A stretch of 24,384 nt of DNA. Origin: a virus. Of this stretch, positions 2,710-20,556 are shown piece by piece (position 1 is the first letter of the stretch; the number at the start of each line of letters is the position of its first letter). The stretch lies in the IMG/VR virus record IMGVR_UViG_3300007511_000146, positions 1 to 24,384 of that record; one strand, 5' to 3'. Made by a program: the position numbers and the translations under genes. The notes beneath the pieces are model-generated. The model was not told the DNA's origin. It ran no database searches and saw only the letters and a program-made list of their open reading frames with translations.

Positions 2710-3143
2710 CAGCGTCCTTCCTTATAGCCTTGTCGGGATTCTCCGTCCCTACTTTGGCGAAGTTGTTTAGGGCAAATGCCATATTTATTGGACACTTCTT
2801 TTTGAGTTGCCCCTTCTTCTAACATTGCCATAGCTTTTCGAACAGTTTCATCTGAGTATTTAATCCCCCGATGATTGGAAGCATTACAGGAATGGTGCGA
2901 AAAGGCAATGTTATCTAAACTCCAAAAGAGTTCCTTGCTTACCCCAAGCCAAGGCTCTTTATGATCAATAGTTAGATCATCTACTTCTTCTATTGGCTTA
3001 CCACAACGAAAACAAATATTTTTCCCTGTTTCTACAAGTAGAGAAAACAGGATATTCTTTCTTAGTTTTTGAGTTGCTTGCGTATAGTGCATACCCAAAA
3101 AATCAAACCGCTTCTTATTTCTTCGTTCACTCTTATTCATCAT
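2709..3143 (-). CDS. Free-standing HNH endonuclease (144 aa), putative homing enzyme
   Basis: The predicted product is an HNH nuclease that nicks or cuts DNA and probably spreads its own gene. The zinc/active-site core is C44-x2-C47, D60-H61 (LTIDHKEPW), N78, then H84 and C86-N87 (HHSCNASNHRG). Residues 112-128 (ATQKEVSNKYGICPKQL) look like a helix-turn-helix for target binding. I place the start at 3143 because AGGGGAGG lies about ten bases upstream. A longer reading to 3356 would overlap the capsid gene antisense-free tail and the terminator, with no ribosome binding site. Two rows sampled inside the gene have 38% and 32% G+C, below the flanking structural genes, as expected for an acquired gene. 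It sits between the capsid and neck genes. Confidence 0.88.
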   Translation of the reverse strand: MMNKSERRNKKRFDFLGMHYTQATQKLRKNILFSLLVETGKNICFRCGKPIEEVDDLTIDHKEPWLGVSKELFWSLDNIAFSHHSCNASNHRGIKYSDETVRKAMAMLEEGATQKEVSNKYGICPKQLRQSRDGESRQGYKEGR

Positions 3144-3196
3144 GTTTCTTGAACCTCCCCTAAGTTGGTTATACAACATGACCACATATATAAATA

Positions 3197-3223
3197 GAGG
3201 GGAAGGCGCATTGCCTCCCCCTC
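3197..3223 (-). terminator. Terminator hairpin after the capsid gene
   Basis: Read on the minus strand, GAGGGGGAGGC pairs with GCCTTCCCCTC over 11 base pairs (one G-U) around the loop AATGC. It is followed by an A/T-rich TATTTATATAT tract rather than a pure U run. It starts about 40 bases after the capsid stop codon and lies upstream of the HNH gene. It would end or attenuate the abundant capsid transcript, leaving less message for the genes beyond. The poor U tract suggests partial read-through. Confidence 0.7.
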
Positions 3224-3256
3224 CATCTTCAACAATGATTACCAGAGTTAGTACCC

Positions 3257-3276
3257 AGTTAAGCTTAGTTAAGCTT
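3257..3276. repeat. 10-bp perfect tandem duplication spanning the capsid stop codon
   Basis: The ten bases AGTTAAGCTT (plus strand) occur twice in direct succession at 3257-3266 and 3267-3276. The capsid TAA at 3267-3265 lies across the junction of the two copies. Each copy contains the palindrome AAGCTT, so the pair could also fold as a small hairpin. Confidence 0.85.
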
Positions 3277-5100
3277 GTTAGGTGTCCAACCCTCAACGCG
3301 ACCAATATCGAAAGTGCGCTGCGCTGTGCCGAAGCCACCAGCGTAGATGTTAGCACCCAGACCCGCGCTAGGCCAGCCTGTGATTTCGAATCGGCAGAAG
3401 TAATCAGAACGAATGAGCTTCTTACCGTAGCGAGTCATAAGACCCTTACGTGGTACGAAGGTGTGCGGATCATAAACTGTAGGAGTTAGCTGGATCGGTA
3501 CGTATGGAGCGTACACGTAGCCAGTTTCCATGAAGCTTGATCCTGTGTATCCCATGATCGCTGTAGCCGCTGGCATGAGCGGATCAACGTACACTTTCAC
3601 ACGATTCTCAAGGAGTCCTGCAAGTTGCATTCCACCAGTAAGGTTGATTGTCTTGTCCGCAGTATCGCGGAGGAAGGCACCACCGTACTCTAGGATTGTA
3701 GCAAACTCAGGAGAGACAACAAGCCAGTTACCGTGGCCGCGTAGCGTTCTCTTGTAGATCATATTTGATCCAGCAAGGATCGCCTCAACAGCGATACGGT
3801 ACTTATCCTGTACAGTCTCACCACCACTGATTGCGCCAGAAAGATCAACCTTGATCTCCGCACCAGCCATACCAATGATGTCTCTGATGATTTCGCGGTC
3901 AATTTCAAGAGCAACTTCATCACTCATCGCGCCAGTCAATTCAGACTCGGCATCAACGCTGTGGTACGCCTGTAGATCCTGCTGAACCTCGGGAGTCCAC
4001 TTTGTCTTGAGCTTACGAGTCTCAGCAACGATAGCTGAACTCTTGATCTCAAGGTTGATTGAACGAATGTTCGAAGTTTCTTCACCCTGTAGAACGTATG
4101 TGTTCGTAGGCTGGTTGAAATTGTCACCAATTTCGAATGGGTTGTAACCGAAGTCAACGAGAAGATTCGCTCCGAAGAACGCTTTACCTGTCGTTGAAGC
4201 GGCCCCGCCCTCTACAGCGGGAACAACCTGCGTATCGGTTCCGTCTAGTGTGTATAGGCCACCCTGCTTGAATACCTGACCAACGCCACCTGTAGGTCCG
4301 TAGAACTGTAGGTTAAGCGCACCGCCAGCTTCCTTAGAAAGCTTGACTTGGTTAGAGGCTTCAGGCGCACCCGTCACAACGTAGAAGCGTACCCACTTGC
4401 CTGAATCATAAGCTCTGTTTGAAGGATACACGTAAACAGTAGGCATACTGTACTTGTGTAGATCCGTTGTAACAGTCTTAGTGAAGGCATCAGCGTCAAG
4501 TGTGTACTGACTATCCTGAACCGCAGTAACAGGGTTCGAAGGTGTACCTGTGTAGTAGGCCCAATTGCCATCGATACCAAGCTGTGCGCCGTTTGAAGGT
4601 GCAGAGCCAGTAGCGGTGATAATTGTACCTGAAGTGTCTAGGAAGTTAGAAGGTCCGTATCCAACCCAATACTTAGTTCCAATACCATATCCCATAGTAT
4701 AGAACTCTTGGTCCTGAACTCGGTTTCCTTCCTCATCCACAAAGTCCATGTAGAAAACAAGGCCAGAAGGAAGGCTCATAGGCTGAACAGACACAATTTC
4801 ATTAGCCAATAGTCCCGCCCAAACACGGCGAACCATCGGGAAAATCACGGTATTGTATCCTTCGGCATCTGTAGTATCGGCCTCAGAAATCATCCATTGG
4901 GCAGTATTTTCAAGAAGCTGCGAAACGTTGCTTCGCATTCTATCATTCTGTAGTCCCTTTAGAAGCCCAAACTTGTGCCACTTTTCCATAAGCTGCGTGT
5001 TAAGTTCGGGAGTATGCTGCGGCTGAAACTTATCAGAGTCCTTCTGTGCTGCTTGCAAAATGGTACTTGTAAAGGTTCTGTTTTTCTTGTAGTTATTCAT
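3265..5100 (-). CDS. 23: Major capsid protein, T4 gp23-like (611 aa)
   Basis: This is the shell-forming subunit of the T4 gp23 type. Diagnostic stretches are MVRRVWAGLLANEIVSVQPM (about residues 87-106; T4 has MVRRAIPNLIAFDICGVQPM), the 'KLKTKWTPEVQQDLQAYHSVDAE' block with 'EVALEIDREII', and the C-terminal FVPRKGLMTRYGKKLIRSDY. A protease site is likely at ISE73/A74, followed by DTTDAEGYN, which aligns with T4 LTE65/AEIGGDHGYN. The mature chain would be about 538 residues, some 80 longer than in T4; the extra sequence is a Gly/Thr/Ser-rich region after residue about 145. The start at 5100 is chosen because AGGAG lies ten bases upstream. The start overlaps the upstream stop by eight bases. A terminator follows. 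Confidence 0.96.
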   Translation of the reverse strand: MNNYKKNRTFTSTILQAAQKDSDKFQPQHTPELNTQLMEKWHKFGLLKGLQNDRMRSNVSQLLENTAQWMISEADTTDAEGYNTVIFPMVRRVWAGLLANEIVSVQPMSLPSGLVFYMDFVDEEGNRVQDQEFYTMGYGIGTKYWVGYGPSNFLDTSGTIITATGSAPSNGAQLGIDGNWAYYTGTPSNPVTAVQDSQYTLDADAFTKTVTTDLHKYSMPTVYVYPSNRAYDSGKWVRFYVVTGAPEASNQVKLSKEAGGALNLQFYGPTGGVGQVFKQGGLYTLDGTDTQVVPAVEGGAASTTGKAFFGANLLVDFGYNPFEIGDNFNQPTNTYVLQGEETSNIRSINLEIKSSAIVAETRKLKTKWTPEVQQDLQAYHSVDAESELTGAMSDEVALEIDREIIRDIIGMAGAEIKVDLSGAISGGETVQDKYRIAVEAILAGSNMIYKRTLRGHGNWLVVSPEFATILEYGGAFLRDTADKTINLTGGMQLAGLLENRVKVYVDPLMPAATAIMGYTGSSFMETGYVYAPYVPIQLTPTVYDPHTFVPRKGLMTRYGKKLIRSDYFCRFEITGWPSAGLGANIYAGGFGTAQRTFDIGRVEGWTPNKLN

Positions 5101-5608
5101 CTTTACTAGTCTCCTGCTTTTCAGCATTAGTGAAAGGATCTAGACCAGCATTGTACTGCATTGTACGTGCTAGTCTTTTGGTTTCAGTTTGTTCTGTTTC
5201 AGCATTAGCCTTCAATTCTTCTTGCTCTTGTATCAACCGCTCTTTGTCTGCTTCCAGTAACCTTATTTTCTCTGTCAATTTAGATTGAGAGTGCTTTAGC
5301 TGTTCATTAAATAGTTTCTTCTCGCGCTTTAGAGCAGAACCAAGCGAACCTAATAGCTCACGTAGCATCTCATTCTCCAAAAGCGTTTCAAAGTGGTCGT
5401 TGAAGTGTGTCATATCTTCCTCTATCACGGGTTGCTCTACAACTACGGGCGGCTTCGTAGCCTCGCGTTTCACCTTTTTCTTAGGCTGGCGGGGCTTTAC
5501 GGCTACCTTTTCTTCAACGACCTTTTCTGGTTTCACTCTCGAAAGCTCACGTAGTAAGCCTTCGGAAGTCATCAGAAATGAGTGTTCCAGTATCTTATGA
5601 CTGTTCAT
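5093..5608 (-). CDS. Coiled-coil protein in the head operon (171 aa), function unknown
   Basis: I do not recognise a family. The N-terminal third is rich in Lys, Pro and Val (about residues 25-60, including KPRQPKKKVKREATKPP). Residues about 70-150 are a long heptad-rich helix with many Glu, Lys and Leu, predicted coiled coil. No hydrophobic segment or enzyme motif is present. The gene lies between the gp22-like scaffold and the gp23-like capsid gene, overlapping the latter by eight bases, and has AAGGTGG before its start. Several Leu/Ile-x-Glu triplets (ILE, LLE, LRE, LTE) fit the cleavage rule of gp21-type proteases. A second scaffold or internal core protein is the natural inference. T4 has no gene at this place between 22 and 23. 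Confidence 0.85.
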   Translation of the reverse strand: MNSHKILEHSFLMTSEGLLRELSRVKPEKVVEEKVAVKPRQPKKKVKREATKPPVVVEQPVIEEDMTHFNDHFETLLENEMLRELLGSLGSALKREKKLFNEQLKHSQSKLTEKIRLLEADKERLIQEQEELKANAETEQTETKRLARTMQYNAGLDPFTNAEKQETSKDE

Positions 5609-5631
5609 GACAAACCACCTTGGTCAATGGT

Positions 5632-6603
5632 TTAGTCAGAAATTCCAGCCAAGTGCTGCATTCTCTTAACGTCCACAGTCTCAATGAGTGTAGGACTTGT
5701 TGTTGAAGAAGAACTCGTCATCGTAGTTTCCTTGATGATTTCCTTGATACCCTTACCAATGTTACCAAGAGCAAAGCTTTCGGAGAGGACGTTATAGATC
5801 TTCTTAACTTCCTTCTCATTCTTTGCGCGGTCGATGGCTTCAATGATGTGAGACTTCTGCTTGGCAGATAGGTTCTCACTAGATAGCAAGCGAGTTGTTA
5901 CAGCGATCTTAGATAGATACAGATCGGTTTCATTAATAGAAGCCTTCTGAGCCTTGACGACCTTTCTTAGCTTCTTATGCTCCTTGATGAGAGCATTCAT
6001 TTTCTTGTTGAGTCTCTTGTATGATTCCATGTAAGGTTCATCCTCTAATTCTTCGTCATCTTCCTCGTCCTCGATTTCATCGTCAAAGACTTCTAGGATT
6101 TCCTCATCATCTTCCTCATCAGCGAGTTCACCTTCAGGGTAATCTAGGTCGAGTTCGTCTGTAGCTTCATCAACTTCGATTTCAGCTTCATCCTCATCGT
6201 CAAGATCATCGACAGCGGTTTCATCACCAGAGGGTTCAGTATCCTCATCGCCTAGATCAACAGCGACTTCCTCATCGCCTTCATCGTCATCCACTTCGAC
6301 TTCTTCATCATCATGAGATTCATCATCGGTATGAATGTCGATATCAACGTTATCGTCATCGCCTTCATCATCGTCAGAGAATTCCTCCTCATCTTCCTCG
6401 CCTAGAAGGTCATCTTCTTCGTCGGAATCAAAGGCAGGAGCATCTCCACCCTCGGCTGAAGGGGTATCTGTTTCCTCAGTAACTTCTTCGGCATCTTCTT
6501 CGTCATCGCCGTCAATTACTTCCTCGTCCTCGTAATCGCCGTCTAGTTCTTCATCAAGTTCTTCAACTTCATTCAAGAATAGATCTTTGATTTTCTTACG
6601 CAT
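5632..6603 (-). CDS. 22: Prohead core scaffold protein, T4 gp22-like (323 aa)
   Basis: The protein guides capsid assembly and is then degraded by the prohead protease. Residues 1-190 are overwhelmingly Asp and Glu with almost no hydrophobic core. Residues about 195-280 are basic and helical: 'YKRLNKKMNALIKEHKKLRK', then 'DLYLSKIAVTTRLLS' and 'LSAKQKSHIIEAIDRAKNEKEVKKIYNVLSES', the conserved block of gp22-like core proteins. The C-terminus RMQHLAGISD matches the 'RMQ.LAG' ending common in this family. AAGGAG precedes the ATG at 6603 by six bases. It follows the protease gene and precedes the coiled-coil gene. The long acidic arm is unusual compared with T4 gp22; it may be a low-complexity internal filler that is removed on maturation. 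Confidence 0.9.
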   Translation of the reverse strand: MRKKIKDLFLNEVEELDEELDGDYEDEEVIDGDDEEDAEEVTEETDTPSAEGGDAPAFDSDEEDDLLGEEDEEEFSDDDEGDDDNVDIDIHTDDESHDDEEVEVDDDEGDEEVAVDLGDEDTEPSGDETAVDDLDDEDEAEIEVDEATDELDLDYPEGELADEEDDEEILEVFDDEIEDEEDDEELEDEPYMESYKRLNKKMNALIKEHKKLRKVVKAQKASINETDLYLSKIAVTTRLLSSENLSAKQKSHIIEAIDRAKNEKEVKKIYNVLSESFALGNIGKGIKEIIKETTMTSSSSTTSPTLIETVDVKRMQHLAGISD

Positions 6604-6612
6604 TTTGTCTCC

Positions 6613-9713: not shown

Positions 9714-11291
9714 CTAGTCATTAAGCAGCCAGCGAAGATCCCCTAGATCTGGATCTTCCCAAGGATCTTCCCCTGGAATTCCCTGTGGCGTTATCTGTGG
9801 TTCCAGCACTTCTGCAAAGGTCTGAAAGTCAGGCGTGTAATACTCAACATCAAGGGCTTGGTGTGAGTTTCGTTGCGCCTCATATCTCAAGTAGCAAGCT
9901 GTTGCAAGAGGAATAACAAGGTCATCATTGTAGCTTTGCATCGCTTGTGCTTTACCGTTGTACCAAATGAAAACGTCAAGCTCATCGAGCAGCCTCTTTG
10001 AGTAAACCTGTAACGTTCTCGGGTTCATTAGCTCAACCATAGCGTCAATGACTCTAGGACGAACTAATGGTGACATGGTGAATCCTGGGACCATTTTCAC
10101 TTCTGACTCAACAGGAGCATAGGGATTCACTTTTGTCTTTTGCGCTCTGCTAGTGTAGTAGATATTGGAATAGCCTGATTCTACGAGCGAACTAGCTACA
10201 GCCCACCCCAAACCGTTGTTTTCTACTACGATTTGCGCTTTCTTATAAGTAGTCGCGGCCTTAAGCAAAAGTTGAACAAATTCAGTCGTAGTTACCTTAC
10301 CCTTGAATTCTTCTATCTGTTCATAGTTGGTTAAGTCAAAGACCTCATAGGTAGAGAAGTCCTTTCCATCACCACGCGCAACGTCAGCCGTAATGATGAA
10401 CTCTCGGTCCATAAGGGTAGGATCATTCTTAAGATCACGCCAACGCCAAATAGCATTGTTGGGACCAGACTTACTGATTGGGTCTTTCATCTTGTGCTTG
10501 CGATACCATTGCAGCGATTCAGCATCAACTACCGTGTTACCTGAAGCAATGAATGAGCATTCATATTCCTGCGCCATGCGCTGCTTGTCAAAGCTAAGAG
10601 CCTTGAACGAATCTTCCCACCAATCCTGATCACGCTCGGGATGAAGATCCCAATTGAGAGTGATAGGCTTGAAGTCGTTTAGTTCTGATTCGGCCTCCAC
10701 AAACATTTTGTGGAAGAAGTTACCCTGACCATTCGGAGTCGAAAGAATGATAGCGTCACCACCCGTTGATAAGGTAGGATACGCAGCGGTCCATAGAACG
10801 TCAATGTTCTTAATAAAGGCAGCTTCATCAAGCACCAACAATGATAAAGCTTCGCTTCGTCCCGCATCATCTGAAGATGGAGAGGCTGTACACGTAGAGC
10901 CATTAGCAATTGTTACGCTCTGTTGGTTGTCGGACGTAAGCTCGGGCTTGAGGAAATCTGGTAGATACCTCATGAACACTTTCACCTTCGTAATGAAGTT
11001 GATAGCGGTTGACTGTTTGGTAGCGATAACCAAGATCTCTTTGTTAGGATGAAAGATCATGAGCCACGCACAGTGACCAGCCACAAGTGTTGACAAGCCA
11101 AGCTGTCTACTCTTGAGGATGATCGTAAATCGGTTCGTTAGGAAGTCCCCTAGCGTTTCCTCTTGAAAGTCGTACATTTTGAAAGGAATCAATCCCTTCA
11201 TTGGGTGTCGCACCTTTCCAAACGTAAGCAGGAAGTAAAGACAATCCCTTGCACACTTGACAAACTCTTGACGTTGTTGTTGTATATCCAT
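9714..11291 (-). CDS. 17: Terminase large subunit, T4 gp17-like (525 aa)
   Basis: The packaging motor has an N-terminal ATPase and a C-terminal RNase H-like nuclease. The ATPase contains KSRQLGLST at 60-68 (Walker A), LLVLDEAAF with D155/E156 (Walker B) and STPNG at 184-188 (coupling motif). The nuclease acidic residues are probably D303 in TADVARGDG, E357 in VVENNG and D456/D457 in YNDDLV. The usual Walker A lysine is replaced by Leu65, while Lys60 sits at the start of the loop, as in the deviant motif of lambda gpA. The length is somewhat shorter than T4 gp17 (610). The start at 11291 is one base from the upstream methyltransferase stop and has only a weak A-rich upstream sequence, which suggests translational coupling. 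Confidence 0.95.
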   Translation of the reverse strand: MDIQQQRQEFVKCARDCLYFLLTFGKVRHPMKGLIPFKMYDFQEETLGDFLTNRFTIILKSRQLGLSTLVAGHCAWLMIFHPNKEILVIATKQSTAINFITKVKVFMRYLPDFLKPELTSDNQQSVTIANGSTCTASPSSDDAGRSEALSLLVLDEAAFIKNIDVLWTAAYPTLSTGGDAIILSTPNGQGNFFHKMFVEAESELNDFKPITLNWDLHPERDQDWWEDSFKALSFDKQRMAQEYECSFIASGNTVVDAESLQWYRKHKMKDPISKSGPNNAIWRWRDLKNDPTLMDREFIITADVARGDGKDFSTYEVFDLTNYEQIEEFKGKVTTTEFVQLLLKAATTYKKAQIVVENNGLGWAVASSLVESGYSNIYYTSRAQKTKVNPYAPVESEVKMVPGFTMSPLVRPRVIDAMVELMNPRTLQVYSKRLLDELDVFIWYNGKAQAMQSYNDDLVIPLATACYLRYEAQRNSHQALDVEYYTPDFQTFAEVLEPQITPQGIPGEDPWEDPDLGDLRWLLND

Positions 11292-11292
11292 T

Positions 11293-11922
11293 CTATGCTT
11301 TTTTCTTTATGATAGCTGTTATTCCAGAGCCATAGAATATCTCTACGAATTCTATACTATCCTGTATGTATTCAATTTCTTCTTCTGTCAGGTATTTACT
11401 AGGAAATTGATTGGACTCTTTTAGAGTTTCAACAAGGGGTAGGGTCTTTGGGAAATCTTTATCATCGATAAACTTCCCCCCTAATTTAGACGTATGAAGA
11501 TCCTCGATAACGTAGTAGCCCTCTGGTTTAACGTAGGGGAATAGAAAACCAAAACTTATCTGCTGTTGTTTCATGTGATGCCCACCGTCATCAAGAATCA
11601 AATCAAAGTCTCCTCCGAATTCAGATATGAATTTTTCGAGACATTCACGATCTGCCTGATCCCCCTTAAATAGTGTGTATCTAGAATCATTGATGTCCGC
11701 AAAATGTCTATCGTCCATACCAAAGACTTTAGCCTTATTGAAATAGGCCAACCACATTTTTATGGAGCCTCCCTTATGCACACCTATTTCAAACACTTTT
11801 TCATAGGTATCTCTTTCATCTTTTAGATACCTGTAGTAGAAGTCTGTGAACCCATGTTTTTCAGAGAAACTAGTTCCCTTATTAGTATTGAATTGATTCG
11901 CTAATCTCGTTAGCTCGTTCAT
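11293..11922 (-). CDS. Class I SAM methyltransferase, MycE-like sugar O-methyltransferase (209 aa)
   Basis: The SAM-binding loop is VFEIGVHKGGS (residues 43-53). It is followed by FGMDD at 67-71 (ribose-binding acidic residues), LILDDGGHH at 108-116 and VIEDLHTS at 138-145. The paired DDGGHH and IEDLH motifs are characteristic of macrolide-sugar O-methyltransferases of the MycE/MycF kind, in which acidic residues hold a magnesium ion near the sugar hydroxyl. The likely role is O-methylation of a sugar made by the neighbouring glycosyltransferases. AAGGAG lies six bases before the start, which overlaps the upstream stop (ATGA). The gene ends one base before the terminase start. Its base composition is A/T-richer than the rest of the cassette. 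Confidence 0.85.
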   Translation of the reverse strand: MNELTRLANQFNTNKGTSFSEKHGFTDFYYRYLKDERDTYEKVFEIGVHKGGSIKMWLAYFNKAKVFGMDDRHFADINDSRYTLFKGDQADRECLEKFISEFGGDFDLILDDGGHHMKQQQISFGFLFPYVKPEGYYVIEDLHTSKLGGKFIDDKDFPKTLPLVETLKESNQFPSKYLTEEEIEYIQDSIEFVEIFYGSGITAIIKKKA

Positions 11923-12620
11923 ACAGACTCCTTAAAGTATTCCTCTACCCAAATAGACCACTTCCTACTCCTATTATTTTTAGGAACGGACCTTCCTACA
12001 TGATGGCATAGCGGTTTATCTTCTTCTAAGTATATAGACTCCCCAAAATCATAAAGACGATCATATTGTTTGGGCCAATTCCGCGAATTCGGAAGCACTT
12101 TAGTTTTTAGCTTATTCTTGAAACAGAATTGTGATAGTTTCCCTGCGGTATCCACAATGGGAATGTTTGGGTATAGGCCCTCTCGGAACTTAATCTCGTC
12201 ATCAAAAATGGCTTTTACAAAAGCCATAAAGTAAGGACGGAAAAAATTCTTATTGTAAGCCCGATCCTCAAATACTCCCGATACTAGCTCGTATTTAGAT
12301 AGCAAATCTGAAATCTTCTTATCCCAATTTTTAGACAAAAAAGCGATATCCTGATCTACTAAAATCACATACTTAGATGCCTTATCTAAGTTGTTATATC
12401 CAATAGATAACCCATCTGCATGTCCTCGGCTTCCTACTTCTTTTGTGTTAGTATTATCCACTAACTTGATATTTGACCACCTTCCATAGTCTAGCTTTGT
12501 AGGGGAATTACATACAACAACCACTTCATAGTTTAAGTGGCTCATCGATTGTTCAATTGATTCAAGGAGAATCTCCATCCAGATATCTCCTTTGTAGTTT
12601 ACTGTTATGAATGAGATCAT
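11919..12620 (-). CDS. GT2-like glycosyltransferase, GT-A fold (233 aa)
   Basis: The N-terminus MISFITVNYKGD is a typical first strand of a family 2 glycosyltransferase. YVILVDQDIAF (residues 84-94) carries a DQD in the position of the metal- and nucleotide-binding DxD. A 'GHADGLSIGYNNL' segment at 66-78 resembles the conserved 'N.G...GlN.Gl' region. The C-terminal half (Trp/Tyr/Lys-rich, ending RKWSIWVEEYF) is not recognised. I place the start at 12620: GGGAGG is ten bases upstream and the ATG overlaps the preceding TGA. The longer frame to 12668 lacks a ribosome binding site. Donor and acceptor are unknown. The gene shares low G+C with the next gene (35% and 32% in two rows counted). Confidence 0.8.
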   Translation of the reverse strand: MISFITVNYKGDIWMEILLESIEQSMSHLNYEVVVVCNSPTKLDYGRWSNIKLVDNTNTKEVGSRGHADGLSIGYNNLDKASKYVILVDQDIAFLSKNWDKKISDLLSKYELVSGVFEDRAYNKNFFRPYFMAFVKAIFDDEIKFREGLYPNIPIVDTAGKLSQFCFKNKLKTKVLPNSRNWPKQYDRLYDFGESIYLEEDKPLCHHVGRSVPKNNRSRKWSIWVEEYFKESV

Positions 12621-13189
12621 ATCAAAGCTGCCTCCCAATCTTCGGTATTCCCTTTGAGGGGATTCCAATCTTTTTCCATGCCTAGAAACTTTCGAACTAT
12701 CTGTCCTTCGGCCTCGATAGCACTCTTGACTCCCGCGCCAACTAAGCCGTAATCGTGCATCACCACAGGGATGCGGGGAAAGAGTTTACGTATGTTCTGA
12801 ATATCCCAACGTGGATACTCGCCTTCATGCATGGCATCTACAAACACAAACTCAATGGGATACTTTCCTATTACTTCCCATGCTTCGGGCCTATAGATAT
12901 CCATTGTCTTGAATACTACATGGTCTTGAAGATCAAGTTCCTCCATGAGTTTCATTGCTTTCGAAATACGCAAAGGATCGTTGTCGATAGCTAGAACCCT
13001 ACCACCGTTCTGCTTCATAGCGAGAGCAAGAGCGGCTGTCGTGTTGCCTGTATCGCATCCTAGTTCCATCACCCACATGTAGGTTTCGAGAACACATTGC
13101 TCATAGAGTTGAACCTTGAGCTTTTCGGTAGTTGTTGTTTTGTACTCAGTCTTGTCTCTTACTGCGCTTAAGATTTGCGATAGCGACAT
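12617..13189 (-). CDS. Class I SAM-dependent methyltransferase (190 aa)
   Basis: The SAM-binding motif is MELGCDTGNT (residues 41-50), followed by VLAIDNDP (65-72). FVFVDAMHEGEYPRWD (114-129) and VVMHDYG (142-148) match the 'DliFIDg.H.y.....D' and 'hDy' motifs of the Methyltransf_24 group, which includes O-methyltransferases acting on sugars and small molecules. The start at 13189 has GAGGAGG seven bases upstream and lies 44 bases inside the end of the preceding glycosyltransferase gene. It ends by ATGA overlap with the next glycosyltransferase. The substrate is unknown; position in the cassette suggests a glycan hydroxyl. Confidence 0.85.
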   Translation of the reverse strand: MSLSQILSAVRDKTEYKTTTTEKLKVQLYEQCVLETYMWVMELGCDTGNTTAALALAMKQNGGRVLAIDNDPLRISKAMKLMEELDLQDHVVFKTMDIYRPEAWEVIGKYPIEFVFVDAMHEGEYPRWDIQNIRKLFPRIPVVMHDYGLVGAGVKSAIEAEGQIVRKFLGMEKDWNPLKGNTEDWEAALI

Positions 13190-14096
13190 GGAAAACCTCC
13201 TCGTATTCGTCTGCGGCTTTTTCGATTGACTTCACTTCGATAAACTGAGTGAGTCTGTTGTAGTTCTCGCAGATAGACTTAAGCCCCCACAAGAAACTGT
13301 ACAAGGTTTGATCGTGAAAAGCTTCCCCACCAACACCTACAATTTCCCGATGCCCTCCGTCATCCAGATACAGTACAGGTAAGCCACAAGCTTGCGCTTC
13401 AATTACCGCATTGGAACAGGGATCGTTTTGTGAAGGTGCTACGTAGATATCCGCTTCATCATAATGATTCTTCAAGAAGGGTGGAGAGACAGCAGGACTA
13501 ACCTTGATCTGCTTGTACTTTCCTGGCAACCGACCAATGAAAGTGTACTCAATCGCTCTTTGTTCAAAATCGATTCGGTCCTCTAACTGTTGAAGTAGCC
13601 ACGCCGCTTTACGTGGATTATCACTCCAACTTGCAGTTATCAATCGAACACGATTGGGCATGTCCATCTCTCGTTTCTTGAACGGAAACATTTCGGTGTC
13701 TGTACCATTGACAATTGTGTACACCGATTTGTGGTCATGCGGCACAAAGCCAAGCTGAAGGTTCTTCTGAAGGCTCCAATCGGATTGAAAAACTGTAGCA
13801 TGCATTTGCTTGTTCATTTCCCAAAGCCTTTTGTCCACGCCTTCATCATGACCACGTATTAGCTGCGTAGGGCCATCAATACGATGAACCAAAGCAACGT
13901 TAGGTGATCGATAGCAGTCCTCTCCGAAGTGATGAGCATTGACTAGCACAACCTCTGCTTCTCCTGCATAACCGCGCAAACGACTATCGATCATAGTATG
14001 TCCGCGTTTTTCGAGTTCCTTGTAGAGATGCTTGAGGAATTGGTTTCCACCGCCCCAAGGTCCGTCCACAAACTCATAGTCAATCAGTATCTTCAT
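13146..14096 (-). CDS. GT4-like glycosyltransferase, GT-B fold (316 aa)
   Basis: The enzyme should transfer a sugar from a nucleotide-sugar donor with retention. MKILIDYEF with GPWGGGNQFLKHL (residues 12-24) is the N-terminal acceptor-side glycine loop. The donor side shows IVNGTDTEMF (128-137), ITASWSDNPRKA (153-164) and NDPCSNAVIEAQACGLPVLY (224-243) with E233, then DDGGHREIV. It shares several motifs with the 334-residue enzyme at 15739-16743 (RIDG/RLDG, VFQSDW/IFQSNF, ASWSDNP/ASSWRPN), so the two are probably paralogues. The start at 14096 follows GGAAGG by six bases; the longer frame to 14129 has no ribosome binding site. It overlaps both neighbours. Confidence 0.87.
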   Translation of the reverse strand: MKILIDYEFVDGPWGGGNQFLKHLYKELEKRGHTMIDSRLRGYAGEAEVVLVNAHHFGEDCYRSPNVALVHRIDGPTQLIRGHDEGVDKRLWEMNKQMHATVFQSDWSLQKNLQLGFVPHDHKSVYTIVNGTDTEMFPFKKREMDMPNRVRLITASWSDNPRKAAWLLQQLEDRIDFEQRAIEYTFIGRLPGKYKQIKVSPAVSPPFLKNHYDEADIYVAPSQNDPCSNAVIEAQACGLPVLYLDDGGHREIVGVGGEAFHDQTLYSFLWGLKSICENYNRLTQFIEVKSIEKAADEYEEVFHVAIANLKRSKRQD

Positions 14097-15048
14097 GAGC
14101 AACCTTCCAACAGTTTTCGATGATCTCATCGTACACTTTGATATGTCTGCGAATGTCCTGATTCAAAGCCTTCTTGTAGTTGTACGTAACCATAGCCGTA
14201 ACGCTGTTACCGTCAAACTCATGGATACGATTTGCCATTTCCCCTTCATCCTTACAGATTGAGTAGGGGTGCAAAGTTCTCTGTGCTGATCCCACGCGAG
14301 TTGATAGGATAGGCTTCTGTGCCAAGCTAGCTTCAAACAAGGCTTGCGGCCCACCTTCATGGCGGGAAGTCACAAGGTACAAGTCAATGACGTTGTATAG
14401 TTCATTCAATCGCTCAACGTCAGCCTTTTCAAAGTAAGAGTAAGGAATCTCAAGTTTGTCTAACTCGGCCATGATATACTGTCTGCGCCAACCCGCTAGA
14501 ACCACATGGCTATCATTCCCCGCTTCTTTCAAAGCTTTCATGATAGCCACGTATCGATCTGGCCCCTTGGACAACTTAGGGGACGCTAGATCGTGACCTT
14601 CAGTATCACGCTGGAATGATCCGAAGATGAGCTTGTCCTCGGGAATTCCTAGTTCCTCTTTAAGCTTCGTGCGTTCTTCTTCAGAGAGAGGAAAAAAGTC
14701 CTCTTTGTTACACCAGTAATCCGTAAGCATCACAGGAGAGTCACTTCCCTTGTCAATCAAATGGTAAGTGAATACATCTTGCGTGAAGTAGTGATCCACA
14801 AATTCGTCCCGTAGCTCAAACTCACGAAGATCAAACTTGCTAGGATCAATGTGATGAATGGTACAGATAACGAACTTCTCTTTAAGAACAGGAACGGGAA
14901 TTTGCGCCCAGACCCAAGGAGCAATCAACCATATGATATCTGCGTCCTCGGGCTTGTCCACGATTTCATGGGACGTAAATTCAAGGAACTCATCCCTAAT
15001 ACGATCTACAATCCAACCTTCTGCGGGATCATTGACGAATAAGTTCAT
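14080..15048 (-). CDS. GT4-like glycosyltransferase, GT-B fold (322 aa)
   Basis: The C-terminal domain carries SRHEGGPQALFEASLAQKPI (residues 228-247), with E231 and E239 forming the EX7E motif of retaining GT4 enzymes. It is followed by LSTRVGSAQ. A hinge near FGSFQRDTEG (142-151) and LAGWRRQYI (184-192) supports a two-domain GT-B fold. The N-terminal half (ADIIWLIAPWVWAQIP, ICTIHHIDPSKF) resembles acceptor domains of similar enzymes. AAAGGA lies six bases before the ATG, which overlaps the preceding stop by one base (TAATG). It differs more from the two other GT4 genes than they do from each other. The sugar transferred is unknown. Confidence 0.86.
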   Translation of the reverse strand: MNLFVNDPAEGWIVDRIRDEFLEFTSHEIVDKPEDADIIWLIAPWVWAQIPVPVLKEKFVICTIHHIDPSKFDLREFELRDEFVDHYFTQDVFTYHLIDKGSDSPVMLTDYWCNKEDFFPLSEEERTKLKEELGIPEDKLIFGSFQRDTEGHDLASPKLSKGPDRYVAIMKALKEAGNDSHVVLAGWRRQYIMAELDKLEIPYSYFEKADVERLNELYNVIDLYLVTSRHEGGPQALFEASLAQKPILSTRVGSAQRTLHPYSICKDEGEMANRIHEFDGNSVTAMVTYNYKKALNQDIRRHIKVYDEIIENCWKVAHEDTD

Positions 15049-15758
15049 TAGGCTTCCTTTCGCTTCAGTAGAACCAACCCCTGATCCGTTTCAGGACCAG
15101 CAGGGCCATCAAACAAGTGTCCTCGGAACTCAATCATTTCAACGTCCCATTCACCTGTAGCAACGATTTCATCAACTACTTCAGTCACTCCTACGCCCCA
15201 AGGACAGTTGTAATCATCAAAAAGGATCATACCACCATCAGCAAGCATGTACTCCGAAATATAGAAGTCCTCCATGATGATAGTCGGGTCATCGTGATTT
15301 CCATCGATGAAAATCAGGTCAAAGTGGTTTTGGTAGCTCATACTATCGAACCTTTTGTTATCTACATGATGAAACGTGATCTTGTCCTTGCCAGGAATAT
15401 TAAGCAATTCGTAAAGCTCTTTGTTCGAAATGTTGATCGGTTCCCACATCAAAGCCGTATCTTGCGCTTTTTCGAAGGGTACCACATCAATCGTAACGAT
15501 TTCCTCCATTTCAGGGATCAAACCAAGCACGTAGCAAGTTGTACCGCGCCCCGTCCCGATTTCAAAGAAGCTCTTAGCTCCTGTATGCTTTGCAATCGCA
15601 TGAATCAGGTATTGCTGTTCCCAACCCGCTTCGAAACGTTCTGAAGGTGGTTTTACGCGAGTTTTCGTGACTTTACAAATGGATTGGATGAGTTTCGCAT
15701 CCTTACGCCAATTGTAGCTGATTTCGCTAAAGTAGGTCTTAAGGTCGGTAGTTTTCAT
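15048..15758 (-). CDS. Class I SAM-dependent methyltransferase, Methyltransf_24 type (236 aa)
   Basis: Motifs are SFFEIGTGRGT (residues 63-73) for SAM binding, VTIDVVP (88-94), FDLIFIDGNHDD (146-157) and MILFDDYN (177-184). This order is that of the Methyltransf_24/class I O-methyltransferase group with an acidic metal-binding set. GGAGG lies six bases before the ATG at 15758, which lies 20 bases inside the upstream glycosyltransferase gene. It is the largest of the three methyltransferases in the cassette and differs from the others in sequence, so the three probably methylate different positions. The substrate is inferred from neighbours only. Confidence 0.87.
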   Translation of the reverse strand: MKTTDLKTYFSEISYNWRKDAKLIQSICKVTKTRVKPPSERFEAGWEQQYLIHAIAKHTGAKSFFEIGTGRGTTCYVLGLIPEMEEIVTIDVVPFEKAQDTALMWEPINISNKELYELLNIPGKDKITFHHVDNKRFDSMSYQNHFDLIFIDGNHDDPTIIMEDFYISEYMLADGGMILFDDYNCPWGVGVTEVVDEIVATGEWDVEMIEFRGHLFDGPAGPETDQGLVLLKRKEA

Positions 15759-16743
15759 GAATTTCCTCCAAAAAGGCTAGGTATCGGTTCGCTGTGTTCT
15801 CAATATTGATCAAATCATGCGTCCAATTGAAATTGTGCGCCATTTCCATGTTCTCGACCACTCTTGCCGCAATTGCTTCGTAATCTTCTTCCATTGACGG
15901 CGGTTCGTAGGTATTGTGGACCTTTAGACTGTATTTCTCAGGTGCAATGATCCCAGAGTCGGGATCTTGCACTAATTCACCTGTCCCGCCCGATTCAGAG
16001 CAAAGTACAGGCACAGAATGGCCCAAAGCCTCTACAACAGAGTTTGGACAGTTATCTAGGTATGTCATATGGAAGAAATAGTCGGATGAGCGGAAAAACG
16101 CCTTCATCATGTCATCATCGATCTTTTGACGGATGATATAGACATCTTCATCGTCTGAATAGACTCCGCACCAATTGAAATCACCAACCATGACGAAAGC
16201 AACCTTGTAATCGACCATTTCCTTCAAATGTTCGAAAACGGCAAGGTTATCCTCGGGTCTTTTGTTAGGTCGCCAGCTTGACGCACTAAAAATGACTCTA
16301 TCGTAGTCTGAAAGGTAATCTAGACGCTTTTTCGGCTTCGTATCGATGACTGTACCGTTTGGAATGACTTTCCAGTGCGGCTCTTCCAGGGTGAGCCAAT
16401 GCCTAAAATGCTTGGCAACAAGCTGCTTTGTGAAGTTGGATTGGAAAATATGGGCATCAACGGAATTGTAGGTGCGAATTATATGGTCGTTACCATTTTT
16501 GTGGGTCAAACCTTCGAAATTCACCTGTTCATTGATATAGATGCCGTCCAAACGCTGCACGTAGGGCCTATCGGAACGTAAATCGAAGGAATTCGATATG
16601 AAAATGAGTCCAACATCGAAATCTTCGTAGATATCCCAAATAACCTTATGCCCTTTACGGCTGAACTCGTCTGCGAGTCGTTTTGCAAACTTAGCGGGAC
16701 CAGAATTAGTCTCGGGGTTCACTCCCTGCATTTGAATCTTCAT
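15739..16743 (-). CDS. GT4-like glycosyltransferase, GT-B fold (334 aa)
   Basis: The N-terminal glycine loop is ETNSGPAKFAKRLADEF (residues 11-27). The donor domain shows VIPNGTVID (126-134), IFSASSWRPNKRPEDNL (151-167) and DNCPNSVVEALGHSVPVLCS (230-249) with E238, followed by ESGGTGELV. These are standard GT4 signatures. Similarity to the 316-residue enzyme points to gene duplication within the cassette. The start at 16743 has AGAGG upstream at about eight bases, and the gene begins 38 bases inside the preceding GT2 gene. A longer frame to 16767 adds only MTKERGSI and lacks a ribosome binding site. Acceptor and donor are not identifiable. Confidence 0.87.
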   Translation of the reverse strand: MKIQMQGVNPETNSGPAKFAKRLADEFSRKGHKVIWDIYEDFDVGLIFISNSFDLRSDRPYVQRLDGIYINEQVNFEGLTHKNGNDHIIRTYNSVDAHIFQSNFTKQLVAKHFRHWLTLEEPHWKVIPNGTVIDTKPKKRLDYLSDYDRVIFSASSWRPNKRPEDNLAVFEHLKEMVDYKVAFVMVGDFNWCGVYSDDEDVYIIRQKIDDDMMKAFFRSSDYFFHMTYLDNCPNSVVEALGHSVPVLCSESGGTGELVQDPDSGIIAPEKYSLKVHNTYEPPSMEEDYEAIAARVVENMEMAHNFNWTHDLINIENTANRYLAFLEEIHENYRP

Positions 16744-17515
16744 TATCGAACCTCTTTCCTTGGTCAATGTATAACTTCACCGCTTCAGCAATGAACTTCG
16801 CGGTTTCCACTTGGATTTTCTCCTTCACATGCTCAGAATCCCAATTTTCCATGTTATACATGCAAATCGGAAGCGAGTTGAAGTAGATTTCGTTCTTGTC
16901 CTCAATCATCTTAAGCATTGGCAGCATATATGCCATGTCATAGCTTGAATTCCAAAAGTTTCCGTTCCTGGGATCGATCATCATCTCGTAAGGTATAGCT
17001 GTAAAGCACTTTCTCTTGAAAGTCTTGAGATGCGAAGCGACCCAAGGGTAATCTTCATACGAATTCGCCAAAATCACTTGTGGCGGGTACTCTCGGCAAT
17101 GTCCATACTTCATATGCCACGGAGTCCACGGCGCATAACGCAGAAATTGACCGTATGTGATAGTAGATTGCTTATGCATGCCCAAAATTACATCAGTTGC
17201 GTTAGGCAACAGCCAATCGTCACCGTCAAGCTGTGCAATAATGGTGTCATCACCCTTCAAATGGTTCACAATGACATTGTAAACGTTGTGTAATGGGCCT
17301 TGACGCTCGGAATTCTCAAGGAGAGTGATTCGCGGCTCATTATCTACTAGAACATGTAGTCTTTTTCGGTCTGTATCGTCCCATTCTGAGGCATCCTCTA
17401 CAATATGTGCCAACCAATCGCCATTTTTCTGCGACATGAGACTTTGAATGCATCTTTCAATCAAGAAAAAGCGGCCTCGGAAGGGGATCACGTAGTTTAC
17501 TCTAGATTTGCTCAT
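16706..17515 (-). CDS. GT2-like glycosyltransferase, GT-A fold (269 aa)
   Basis: The start VNYVIPFRGR (residues 6-15) and AQLDGDDWLLPNA (94-106), with D97/D99/D100, give the DxD motif of inverting GT2 enzymes. HIVEDASEWDDT (37-48) resembles the uridine-binding strand. Downstream segments GHCREYP (138-144), WVASHLKTFKR (158-168) and YDMAYMLPMLKM (192-203) recur in the next-upstream gene as CREYP, WWASQLRTYRR and WDLSFMFPMLEM, so the two are tandem paralogues. GAGGTG lies about six bases before the ATG, which overlaps the preceding stop (ATGA). The C-terminus is poorly conserved and overlaps the GT4 gene by 38 bases. Its product probably adds one residue to the same glycan. Confidence 0.87.
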   Translation of the reverse strand: MSKSRVNYVIPFRGRFFLIERCIQSLMSQKNGDWLAHIVEDASEWDDTDRKRLHVLVDNEPRITLLENSERQGPLHNVYNVIVNHLKGDDTIIAQLDGDDWLLPNATDVILGMHKQSTITYGQFLRYAPWTPWHMKYGHCREYPPQVILANSYEDYPWVASHLKTFKRKCFTAIPYEMMIDPRNGNFWNSSYDMAYMLPMLKMIEDKNEIYFNSLPICMYNMENWDSEHVKEKIQVETAKFIAEAVKLYIDQGKRFDNEDSNAGSEPRD

Positions 17516-18270
17516 GATTTCACCTCGTTATAGGGCTTATACTTCGCCTTGGCTCGTATCTCCCAATCGTTACGCCTCTGCTCTCCTTCTTTTGAAATGA
17601 AATCGCAATTAGCATGGATATTATAATACAAAAGAGCTTCTTGGAATACCTTGACGTTCTCCTGCTCACACATTTCAAGCATGGGGAACATGAAGGATAG
17701 ATCCCAAGCGACTTTGTAGTAGTTGCCTTCCTTGTCTTTCATGTCATCTAGCTTGACTTCATCCCAAAGAAAACGCCGATAGGTTCTCAACTGAGAAGCC
17801 CACCAGCCGAACTGTCTAAAGCCCTTCTTTTTCCAGATGAAATCGGGATACTCGCGGCAAACAATATGCTCTCCTGTGGAACGCACGTGCGAACCGTAGG
17901 TAAGCCAAACGTTAGGATCTTCGTAGGCTTGGACAAGCTTCTGAAGAACCCACTTGTGCGTGAGAGCATCGTCCCCATCGACCTCAAGCAGAATATCTTG
18001 AGGATTGTCGCTATCTTCATCGCGTAGCGTCTGCCAACCATCGATCAGATTGAACATGCCGCCCATGTTCTCGGGTTGCTCCTTAAGCATAAACCGATCA
18101 TCCCCACGAATCGCTTTACGGGCGAGTTCATAGGTATCATCGGTTGTCCCGCCATCAACAATGATAATTGCCTTAAAACGATCATGTGTCTGCGACTTGA
18201 TGCTTTTTATACATGCCTTGATATAACGTTCACAATTCCAAGCAGGAATCACGATATGGAATTTGGTCAT
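17512..18270 (-). CDS. GT2-like glycosyltransferase, GT-A fold (252 aa)
   Basis: The protein opens with KFHIVIPAWNCERYIKACI (residues 3-21) and IIIVDGGTTDDT (35-46), classic GT2 first motifs. LLEVDGDDALTH (94-105) carries the DxD. WDLSFMFPMLEM (189-200) is in the acceptor half. It is a paralogue of the gene immediately downstream, with which it shares at least three blocks. GAGG lies eight bases before the ATG, and the ATG directly follows the TAA of the upstream gene. It is the first gene of the sugar-transfer cassette in the direction of transcription. There is no transmembrane segment, so the enzyme should work in the cytoplasm on a soluble or membrane-anchored acceptor. Confidence 0.89.
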   Translation of the reverse strand: MTKFHIVIPAWNCERYIKACIKSIKSQTHDRFKAIIIVDGGTTDDTYELARKAIRGDDRFMLKEQPENMGGMFNLIDGWQTLRDEDSDNPQDILLEVDGDDALTHKWVLQKLVQAYEDPNVWLTYGSHVRSTGEHIVCREYPDFIWKKKGFRQFGWWASQLRTYRRFLWDEVKLDDMKDKEGNYYKVAWDLSFMFPMLEMCEQENVKVFQEALLYYNIHANCDFISKEGEQRRNDWEIRAKAKYKPYNEVKS

Positions 18271-18768
18271 TTAGATAACCTCACCTTTTCGAGTTTGTCT
18301 GGTTCTGATTCTACTTCGGTTTCCCTCAAGCACTAGGCCCTCTACCTCGGAACCCATGCGCTCATAGAGATAGCGTCTATACGCTTTCAACAGTCTAGGG
18401 GCAGAACGCTTGAGCAGGAAGTAGAACAGCCTCCCATCTGCATTAGGAAACTTCTCCTTGAAGTTCTCCAACGTTGTCCAGTATTTTCGATTCATGTAAC
18501 GAATGTTTATGCCCTCAATGAAAGGCCGATCACATTGCTTGTCCGCATGAAGCACAAACACAACAGGGCGCGTGTCCCAAGCCCACGGCTTTAGATACGC
18601 AAACTTGACGAAGGTTCCAACTTCAATGTCGGATTCCTTGCGTCTGAATGTAGTTTCCTTTGGCCCTTTAATATCCTTGGATTGCTTGGTCGGCGTTCTC
18701 TGAATCGGCTTAACCCGTTTCGGCCTCGTTTTCCAATGGACATTTGCCATGCGTTTTATTCGTGCCAT
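18271..18768 (-). CDS. Basic phage protein of unknown function (165 aa)
   Basis: No named family is assigned. The first 45 residues are strongly basic (Arg/Lys, Pro, Thr), consistent with binding nucleic acid. Residues about 50-92 read as a compact beta region: TFVKFAYLKPWAWDTRPVVFVLH, then FIEGINIRYM. I recall this 'F.Y......D..P.v.vl......f.GiN..Y' pattern from uncharacterised proteins of many large phages, but it has no role I can name. The RLLKAYRRYL helix (125-134) is the other distinct feature. The start at 18768 lies one base after the HNH stop, with AAGGAT about ten bases upstream; the longer frame to 18819 would overlap the HNH gene without a ribosome binding site. Confidence 0.8.
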   Translation of the reverse strand: MARIKRMANVHWKTRPKRVKPIQRTPTKQSKDIKGPKETTFRRKESDIEVGTFVKFAYLKPWAWDTRPVVFVLHADKQCDRPFIEGINIRYMNRKYWTTLENFKEKFPNADGRLFYFLLKRSAPRLLKAYRRYLYERMGSEVEGLVLEGNRSRIRTRQTRKGEVI

Positions 18769-18769
18769 A

Positions 18770-19324
18770 TTATAGTAGATCCTTGAGGAAAAGTATATAC
18801 TCTGCTTTCGTTTTTGCATGCTTTTTTAGATTACACTCACAACATACAGGCTCAAGATTCTCTGTCAAGTCCGAACCACCACGACTTAAAGGGATCATAT
18901 GGTCTATCTGCATGATCTCTGAATCATACACGAAGCCAATTTCCTTACCACAGTAAGGACATAAACCTGTTCCCTGTGCGGCGATTTCTTCATGTGTCCA
19001 CACTTCGGTTTCCACTTGCATCTTTATAGCTCTCCGCTTAGTCTTGTGTCTCTTGTGAAGATCGGGATTTCTTTTCTTCCATTCCTTTTGATACGCCTTT
19101 AAGCGTTCCCTATTCTCTAAGTAGTAGTCCCTTCGCTTCTTTGCGATTCTCTCTTTATTTTCATCCTGCCACTTACGCCCTCGTTCTTTATACCTATCCT
19201 TATTCTTTTGATAGTAAGCCTTATTTCGTTCCTTTAGACAAAGGGCGCAGATCTTCCACTTCGTTTTTTCATAACGTGGAAACTGGTCTATAGGCTTATC
19301 CTCTTTGCAGTAATTACAGATCAT
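18770..19324 (-). CDS. Free-standing HNH endonuclease with zinc ribbon (184 aa), putative homing enzyme
   Basis: Residues 3-29 hold a CxxC...CxxC zinc ribbon (C3, C6, C26, C29). A long Lys/Arg/Tyr-rich helical linker (30-105) follows, probably for DNA contact. The nuclease is at 122-169: C122-x2-C125, IDHMIPLSRGGSD with D141/H142, N156, C162/C164-N165 and H169. This is a standard HNH arrangement. The start at 19324 follows AGGGGG by seven bases, and that site lies in the 3' arm of a perfect hairpin (19332-19360). A longer frame to 19363 has no ribosome binding site. The gene lies between a small unknown gene and the basic protein, unrelated in function to either, as expected of a homing insertion. 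Confidence 0.9.
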   Translation of the reverse strand: MICNYCKEDKPIDQFPRYEKTKWKICALCLKERNKAYYQKNKDRYKERGRKWQDENKERIAKKRRDYYLENRERLKAYQKEWKKRNPDLHKRHKTKRRAIKMQVETEVWTHEEIAAQGTGLCPYCGKEIGFVYDSEIMQIDHMIPLSRGGSDLTENLEPVCCECNLKKHAKTKAEYILFLKDLL

Positions 19325-19331
19325 AGAAATA

Positions 19332-19360
19332 CCCCCTAAAGATAAATAGTCTTTAGGGGG
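19332..19360 (-). promoter_or_regulatory. Perfect 10-bp hairpin enclosing the HNH ribosome binding site
   Basis: On the minus strand CCCCCTAAAG and CTTTAGGGGG pair perfectly over ten bases around a nine-base loop. The second arm contains the AGGGGG that should bind ribosomes for the HNH gene starting at 19324. In T4, several genes including homing endonucleases are kept silent on long early transcripts by hairpins that hide the ribosome binding site and are translated only from late messages starting inside. The hairpin is seen; that regulation is inferred. It could also be a weak terminator for the epimerase unit, since TATTTCT follows it. Confidence 0.75.
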
Positions 19361-19384
19361 CATTAAGGGCAGAACTAACTTAGC

Positions 19385-19590: not shown

Positions 19591-20556
19591 TTATACCTCA
19601 TTCAGATAGTAACTCGCTTGGTTAAGATTCTCTTTGACCCAACGAATTTGCTTCTCTATTCCATCCTTTAACAGAGTCGAAGGCAACCACCATCGTTCAA
19701 GCCGCCAATCTTCGGCAGCTTGTGTGATATTTGCATCACCACGAACTCCTGGGTTACGTAAAACGTTAATCTCCTTTCCTAGTTCTTTCTCAATGATCTT
19801 GATTGTTGCGTCCATCGAAACAACAGAACCGCCGCTGATATTGTACGTGTAACAGTCGGCCTTACGTTCTGCTGCCTTATAGAAGGCTTCGCATACGTCC
19901 TCAACGTAAGTGAATTCCCGCTTCACTCCACCATAGAGATTGAAAGGCTTGTCCATAAGTCCACTCATGATAAGTCGGCCAAACGCCATGTCGGGACGCT
20001 GGCGCGGACCATAGACGTTGAACAGTCTAAGGATCGTGTAATGAACTCCATGCCATCGATGATAAAGTCGGATCAAATCCTCGGAAGCATTTTTCGTTAC
20101 TCCATAAGGACTAACAGGCTTGGTTCTTTGGTTCACATCGAAGGGAACCATCGTATCACCATAGACAGAACTTGTCCCTGCGTAGAATAATTCTACTGAG
20201 GGAACTTCCTTCATTGCGTCCAGAAGATTCTGTGTTACGAGAATATTGTCAGAGAGATAGTGTACAAACCTTTCCCCCCAACTAGAGCGTACCCCCGCAC
20301 GTGCCGCAAGGTGGAACACTACATCAACGCTCTTGATTAGCTCCACCAATTCTTCGTGAGGCATGTAGGCCAGATCCTTCTCTATCAATTCAAAGTTATC
20401 ATTGAAGGAAAGATCATACAGGTTCAATCGTTTGAACTGAGGGTCATAATGAGTTGTGAATGAATCCACGCCCACTACGTCCCATCCTTTTTCAATCAAG
20501 TAGTCACAAAGATTAGAACCAATGAAACCCGCTGCCCCTGTTACTAGGGCTTTCAT
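19591..20556 (-). CDS. NAD-dependent nucleotide-sugar 4-epimerase/dehydratase, extended SDR (321 aa)
   Basis: The enzyme converts a nucleotide-sugar, supplying a donor for glycosyltransferases. VTGAAGFIGSN at residues 5-15 is the NAD-binding GxxGxxG (G7, G10, G13). SSVYGD (129-134) and Y151-x3-K155 give the catalytic Ser/Tyr/Lys set. FNVYGPRQRPDMAFGRL (179-195) is the substrate loop. The early 'GVDSFTTHYDPQFKRLNL' and 'HLAARAGVRSSW' segments look most like UDP-glucuronate or UDP-glucose 4-epimerases, but the exact sugar is not certain. Its start follows the upstream 49-residue gene's TAA directly. It lies 1.3 kb upstream of the glycosyltransferase cassette and probably serves it. The length is normal for the family. 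Confidence 0.92.
   Translation of the reverse strand: MKALVTGAAGFIGSNLCDYLIEKGWDVVGVDSFTTHYDPQFKRLNLYDLSFNDNFELIEKDLAYMPHEELVELIKSVDVVFHLAARAGVRSSWGERFVHYLSDNILVTQNLLDAMKEVPSVELFYAGTSSVYGDTMVPFDVNQRTKPVSPYGVTKNASEDLIRLYHRWHGVHYTILRLFNVYGPRQRPDMAFGRLIMSGLMDKPFNLYGGVKREFTYVEDVCEAFYKAAERKADCYTYNISGGSVVSMDATIKIIEKELGKEINVLRNPGVRGDANITQAAEDWRLERWWLPSTLLKDGIEKQIRWVKENLNQASYYLNEV

Follow-up and report, generated by a model that had tools for sequence, protein, structure and literature searches.

In the mycobacteriophages Che8, Corndog, and Myrna, virion proteins are reported to be glycosylated by the phage itself (PMC12363180, PMC12619734), and a Che8 glycosyltransferase (GT) is reported to glycosylate the capsid (PMC12363180). 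In PBCV-1, A064R and A061L combine GT domains with two sugar O-methyltransferases that act on the viral capsid glycan (PMC9614988). Among the literature found, virion glycosylation by phages has been shown for a few mycobacteriophages only. Here, we report a cassette of nine predicted GT and methyltransferase (MT) genes that leads directly into the terminase large subunit gene (terL) of the phage of IMG/VR record IMGVR_UViG_3300007511_000146; the window, i.e., the whole stretch analysed, is this complete record of 24,384 bp. Large glycan cassettes have already been noted in large aquatic phages (PMC7029224, PMC12619734), and what is added here is the assignment of one enzyme to the MycE/TylE family and the division of the locus into a core that is conserved and an end that is exchanged between phages. 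The locus is compact, one of its enzymes is recognisable as a sugar O-MT, and it belongs to a major phage group, the Gp23-type phages, in which related GTs are common; it makes the acceptor question directly testable.

Nine sugar genes leading into the terminase gene

Nine minus-strand open reading frames (ORFs) run from 18270 to 11293, overlapping or abutting, and end 1 bp before terL; the ORF coordinates thus confirm the run described in a first-pass annotation of the window. Judging from the enzyme families, the cassette very probably builds a short sugar chain and adds methyl groups to it. By analogy with the mycobacteriophages, we lean towards a virion protein as the carrier of this O-methylated oligosaccharide. 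The features are given below with amino acid (aa) identities to two related phages, G002 (IMG/VR 3300035698_011158, with a terL 82% identical in aa to that of the window phage) and L005; alternative starts were considered at 16743 or 16767, 14096 or 14129, and 12620 or 12668.

19591..20556, minus strand: NDP-sugar epimerase, UDP-glucuronate 4-epimerase-like, 321 aa (PF01370, 2.8e-49)
18271..18819, minus strand: basic 182-aa protein, conserved immediately ahead of the first GT both in the window phage and in G002 (68-70% aa identity to G002)
17512..18270, minus strand: GT2a, GT-A family 2 glycosyltransferase, DGDD motif (PF00535, 4.6e-18)
16706..17515, minus strand: GT2b, family 2 glycosyltransferase, DGDD motif (PF00535, 7.9e-9)
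15739..16743, minus strand: GT4a, GT-B family 4 glycosyltransferase (PF00534, 5.1e-10; 68% aa in G002)
15048..15758, minus strand: MT15048, class I, metal-dependent O-methyltransferase-like, Methyltransf_24/Methyltransf_3 (PF13578, 6.7e-9; PF01596, 6.4e-6)
14080..15048, minus strand: GT4b, GT-B family 4 glycosyltransferase, EX7E motif (PF00534, 1.1e-8; 72% aa in G002)
13146..14096, minus strand: GT4c, GT-B family 4 glycosyltransferase, the breakpoint gene (PF13692, 4.2e-11; 38% aa in G002)
12617..13189, minus strand: class I methyltransferase, Methyltransf_24 (PF13578, 2.7e-11; weak O-methyltransferase match to 7cvu)
11919..12620, minus strand: GT2c, probable diverged GT-A (GT2-like) transferase, DQD motif (Foldseek to GT2 enzymes; 54% aa in L005)
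11293..11922, minus strand: MycE/TylE-family sugar O-methyltransferase (phmmer to 3ssm, 7.6e-24, and 8ia9, 1.1e-18; Methyltransf_24, 1.4e-5)
9714..11291, minus strand: terL, terminase large subunit, first head-block gene (phrog_2, 2.1e-45)
3265..5127, minus strand: Gp23-type major head protein, 620 aa (phrog_138, 4.8e-70)

Five of the six GTs rise above the curated Pfam cut-offs, two with PF00535 and three with PF00534/PF13692, so that the initial count of three GT2-like and three GT4-like enzymes stands for these five by family, and for the sixth, GT2c, by its modeled fold. No Pfam family above cut-off, no PHROG, and no NCBIfam family was found for GT2c (11919-12620). Its AlphaFold model is confident in the N-terminal half only, and that half, which alone was used, matches GT-A/GT2 enzymes (DPMS, GtrB) with a Foldseek probability of 1.00 and E=1e-5; an aspartate motif, VDQD, lies in the expected place. 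GT2c is probably GT-A-like, i.e., GT2-like, and the weakest of the six GT calls. Shallow alignments account for the low confidence of the models of GT2c and MT15048. GT2a (17512) has a short GtrB-like N-terminal match (2.3e-5). All cassette enzymes look soluble, with no membrane segments by hydropathy.

A 57,307-bp IMG/VR record (G001, also L003), which may or may not come from separate reads, contains the entire window in reverse orientation, 99.98% identical. Because this record matches and six of the genes stand in the same order in the clearly different phage G002, an assembly artefact is unlikely for the nine-gene run. The 57-kb contig (G001) and the 48-kb contig (G002) are both fragments of phage genomes.

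Methyl groups and sugar precursors

Among solved structures and up to E=1, the only phmmer matches of the product of 11293-11922 are 3ssm (7.6e-24), which we take to be MycE, and 8ia9 (1.1e-18), a demethylmacrocin O-methyltransferase. Its residues D112, H115, E140, and D141 align with D275, H278, E303, and D304 of MycE, numbered here as the chain minus a 20-residue tag, which is our reading and is consistent with PMC9275233. In that work, Asp275, His278, and Asp304 are described as part of a conserved active site (PMC9275233); Asp275 and Asp304 bind Mg, and His278 is catalytic. The C-terminal half of the MycE chain alone aligns; the N-terminal domain is missing, and the active-site loop with Tyr208 falls in a gap. 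The alignment identifies the phage protein as a relative of the MycE/TylE catalytic domain, without implying full membership or a shared substrate. Its Methyltransf_24 match (1.4e-5) sits exactly at the curated cut-off; together with those at 15048 and 12617 it upholds the three class I MTs first proposed. MT15048 finds weak O-methyltransferase matches in the PDB, and its low-confidence model has SafC as the best Foldseek hit at just 1.4e-3. Scans of viral contigs with alignments of MT15048, the MycE-type MT, and GT4b returned the same phages and weak GT matches only, and scans of genome contigs gave no cellular relatives of the MycE-type MT or GT4a.

The epimerase at 19591-20556, whose earlier assignment is borne out by PF01370, has as its best solved match 6zl6 (2.2e-59), presumably one of the B. 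cereus UDP-glucuronate 4-epimerase structures; MoeE5 is also among the best matches. Key residues of UDP-glucuronate 4-epimerase are Thr126-Ser127-Ser128, Tyr149, and Thr178, the latter through a main-chain contact (PMC7984243). The phage protein keeps the TSS carboxylate grip, the catalytic Tyr, and PRQRPDMAF, and has Asn at the Thr178 position. Since a MycE/TylE-type MT and a UDP-GlcA 4-epimerase-like gene occur together, a methylated, possibly uronate-containing oligosaccharide is the best-supported product, and the O-methylated oligosaccharide pathway suggested at first is well supported.

The nearest solved relatives of the 11293-11922 enzyme methylate the sugar of macrolide antibiotics. 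The cassette might accordingly act on small molecules, making or altering a soluble glycoside or another metabolite in place of a macromolecule. We give this little credence: no aglycone-forming genes were recognised among the contig genes examined, the substrate range of the family is unreadable from sequence, and we know of no phage precedent for such a pathway. Phage GTs can also modify DNA, e.g., in T4, according to work cited in PMC12619734, so that the cassette might glycosylate and methylate phage DNA into hypermodified bases. One of the MTs does match a PHROG annotated as DNA methyltransferase (phrog_2675, 4.6e-9); however, the thymidylate-synthase family PF00303, which would include dCMP hydroxymethylase, is absent from G001 and G002, both fragments. 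MycE/TylE-type MTs act on small-molecule sugars, and six sequential GTs are, to our knowledge, more than known DNA glycans involve. DNA, named at first as an alternative target, is thus very improbable.

A conserved core and a swappable terL-proximal end

G002, from an Ace Lake co-assembly (PMC8542988), retains GT2a, GT2b, GT4a, MT15048, and GT4b at 67-72% aa identity and GT4c at 38%. Between GT4c and terL everything differs: the genes there encode a DUF2334/deacetylase-like protein, six methyltransferases (one FkbM enzyme and five of class I with weak classification), and two GT-like proteins. The third phage, L005, retains GT2c and the MycE-type MT against terL. Because G002 replaces the part that L005 keeps, the locus divides into a core that is conserved and a terL-proximal end that can be swapped. 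The five core genes have no internal stops, and their pN/pS of about 0.21-0.28, compared with 0.15-0.31 in head genes and with synonymous sites close to saturation, indicates purifying selection, as for the head genes. The epimerase gene is absent from G002. The comparison of related phages for gain and loss of the cassette, proposed in the first-pass annotation, separates a kept core from an exchanged end.

Beyond these phages, no recognisable cassette gene was found in 77 other terL relatives (phmmer 1e-3, DNA examined), many of them short fragments, and L004 has a different reading frame ahead of terL, too short for identification. Among the phages compared here, the direct join of the cassette to terL is seen only in the lineage of the window phage. 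The 182-aa protein (18271-18819) has no Pfam or PHROG family and no named-phage match.

The head block after the cassette comprises terL, portal, protease, and a gp23-type major head protein (PHROG matches), by which the window phage is T4-like; among named phages, Flavobacterium phage immuto and Microcystis phage Mel-JY01 come closest to it in terL, each at 42% aa. On G001, the order is tRNA cluster, replication genes (RecA-like, 5'-3' exonuclease, DnaB, ribonucleotide reductase), small genes, epimerase, cassette, terL, portal, protease, capsid, and tail genes. Late expression had been called plausible from the way the cassette leads into terL; this argument is weak because nearly all G001 genes, replication genes included, lie on the same strand. 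Sigma-70 promoter-like sites are below shuffled expectation, terminator-like sites are about at expectation, and a T4-type TATAAATA late promoter does not occur on the coding strand, so that expression timing cannot be inferred from these sites.

Among the tRNA genes of G001, a contig with 11 predicted tRNAs, a TROVE/Ro60-like protein is encoded (L090, 1364-2695). Two free-standing HNH endonuclease genes lie on the minus strand of the window, one just upstream of the cassette (18770-19363) and one at 2709-3356 that overlaps the capsid gene at its 3' end. Neither is present at the corresponding place in G002, which is why they may be mobile and may help to spread flanking genes.

The acceptor and likeness to described systems

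All 100 of the 100 IMG/VR pattern hits encode GT2a relatives, mostly at 31-39% identity. In the sampled contigs, a Gp23-type capsid protein is present in 20 of 30 and a Terminase_6N domain in 18 of 30, and the neighborhoods of the GT2a relative often hold FkbM or MycE-type MTs and epimerases. With the GT2a family widespread among large Gp23-type phages, large glycan cassettes are a recurring feature of large aquatic phages.

Several head operons argue for a virion acceptor. In L199, terL is separated from the head-block gene that follows by a gene (2192-6607) for a single 1471-aa protein of the order GT4-FkbM-MT-MT-GT9; L201 has an FkbM gene between portal and protease; mycobacteriophage LittleE has the order MCP, GT, kinase, MT, GT, head-tail adaptor; and in prophiFSAT01-1, genes for a GT and a MycE-like MT precede terS/terL at a distance of a few genes. 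It would seem that glycan-methylation genes have entered head operons repeatedly, in phages of quite different kinds. The L199 protein moreover has an MT domain related to MTs beside GTs in mycobacteriophage Tweety (genus Cheoctovirus), where kinase, MT, and GT follow consecutively, and Che8 we take, from the genus name, to belong to the same genus; the virion acceptor is favored for this reason as well. It is also favored by the absence from both contigs, which are fragments, of the initiating transferase, flippase, and Wzy-type polymerase families PF02397 (Bac_transf), PF00953 (Glycos_transf_4, WecA/MraY), PF01943 (Polysacc_synt), and PF04932 (Wzy_C), which agrees with the first-pass annotation that had seen no polymerase, flippase, or first-step enzyme.

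On this basis, the soluble GTs, namely the two GT2 and three GT4 enzymes together with a probable sixth of diverged GT-A type, would build a short oligosaccharide in the cytoplasm of the infected cell from host nucleotide sugars, in the window phage possibly including UDP-GalA/UDP-GlcA by way of the epimerase. The MTs, at least one of them of the MycE/TylE sugar type, would cap sugar hydroxyls. A head, tail tube, or fibre protein, abundant in the virion, would most likely be the acceptor and would receive the glycan either ahead of assembly or in the course of it; the result would be a particle with a methylated coat. As the terL-proximal genes are exchanged between phages and the upstream core is conserved, the outer, capping chemistry would vary from strain to strain. 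A bolder reading, possible though rather unlikely, is that virions of a T4-like phage lineage carry a coat of this O-methylated oligosaccharide and that strains exchange its outer chemistry by replacing the terL-proximal half of the cassette, so that phage particles would vary in a serotype-like manner.

The major head protein, with its enlarged and fast-evolving middle section, is a candidate acceptor only. Its residues ~160-320 are 45-60% identical to those of L007, and the other head-protein blocks are mostly 82-97% identical, a few 65-72%; the middle section is possibly an exposed, diversifying domain. The insertion in this protein is 244 residues long; in immuto, Mel-JY01, and RM378 it measures 188-200. 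We considered this enlargement as a sign of the acceptor and dropped it, given that phylogeny was uncontrolled and that phages of the wider GT2a set also mostly have capsid proteins of 579-635 aa.

Several points weigh against a virion acceptor. A dedicated protein O-glycosyltransferase was not among the enzymes recognised. In the stretches of immuto, Mel-JY01, and RM378 that were read, neither terL nor the head genes adjoin a run of this kind; as the nearest named terL relatives do without it there, particles evidently can dispense with a terL-adjacent cassette. The contigs behind the absence arguments are both fragments. Product, acceptor, and timing are what we infer; GT and MT genes in or beside other head operons make a virion acceptor plausible. 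Finally, sugar clusters of other Gp23-type phages lie away from the head genes, can be convergent with them, and include GDP-fucose-type synthesis genes, which further weakens the late-expression argument and would also fit host-envelope modification. In one Gp23-type contig examined closely (G033; L225 687-19576), the large cluster, with GDP-fucose-type genes and fucosyltransferases, is convergent with the head genes and holds GT2s, a DegT aminotransferase, GT10, a rhamnosyl-O-methyltransferase/CmcI-family MT, GT11, a fucose-synthase-like epimerase, and GDP-mannose dehydratase.

Such gene sets bear on the main rival, likewise anticipated at first, i.e., that the cassette alters a host surface glycan (LPS/capsule) through host lipid-linked intermediates and export, blocking superinfection or hiding released receptors. 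Mixtures of GT2, GT4, and MT genes are typical of O-antigen loci, the diverged GT2c is GtrB-like in fold, and GT clusters of pelagimyophages were so interpreted by their authors (PMC7029224). However, the families needed to start, flip, and polymerise a surface glycan are missing over 57 kb and 48 kb, the enzymes look soluble, and GT/MT genes nested in the head operons of several unrelated phages are unexpected for an early host-takeover function. A GtrABC serotype-conversion module is not indicated: all cassette proteins look soluble, and the one GtrB-like match is the short N-terminal one in GT2a; the GtrA family was not searched separately. We regard host-glycan modification as a serious though less probable alternative, and keep a virion protein as the preferred acceptor.

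Virion glycosylation in mycobacteriophages (Che8 gp110, Corndog gp38; Tweety 102-104, LittleE 15-18) likewise combines phage GTs with a class I methyltransferase, and in LittleE the run lies among head genes, beside the capsid gene. The mycobacteriophage runs differ in having far fewer enzymes, a kinase, another host and lineage, and no T4-like head. The acceptor is reported for Che8, Corndog, and Myrna (PMC12363180, PMC12619734). The window phage is known from metagenome-derived records alone. In PBCV-1, A064R/A061L are alike in that GT domains are followed by sugar O-methyltransferases capping the oligosaccharide of the major capsid protein (PMC9614988); the virus is a eukaryotic giant virus with a multidomain enzyme and an unrelated capsid, and the likeness considered here is one of function. 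The product of 11293-11922 shares sequence family and metal/catalytic residues with MycE/TylE but is half as long and has neither the N-terminal domain nor the Tyr208 loop. In Mel-JY01 (terL 42%), a large FkbM/GT-type protein is encoded ~7 kb upstream of terL and in the same direction; unlike the cassette, this is a single fused gene with other domains in another position. Cyanophage S-SCSM1 genes 123-135, although not beside terL, including fucosyltransferases and an asparagine synthase, and likewise of predicted function, resemble the present locus in a T4-like setting: an epimerase, several GTs, and two MTs form an overlapping run, and one of these MTs is related to the MycE-type MT.

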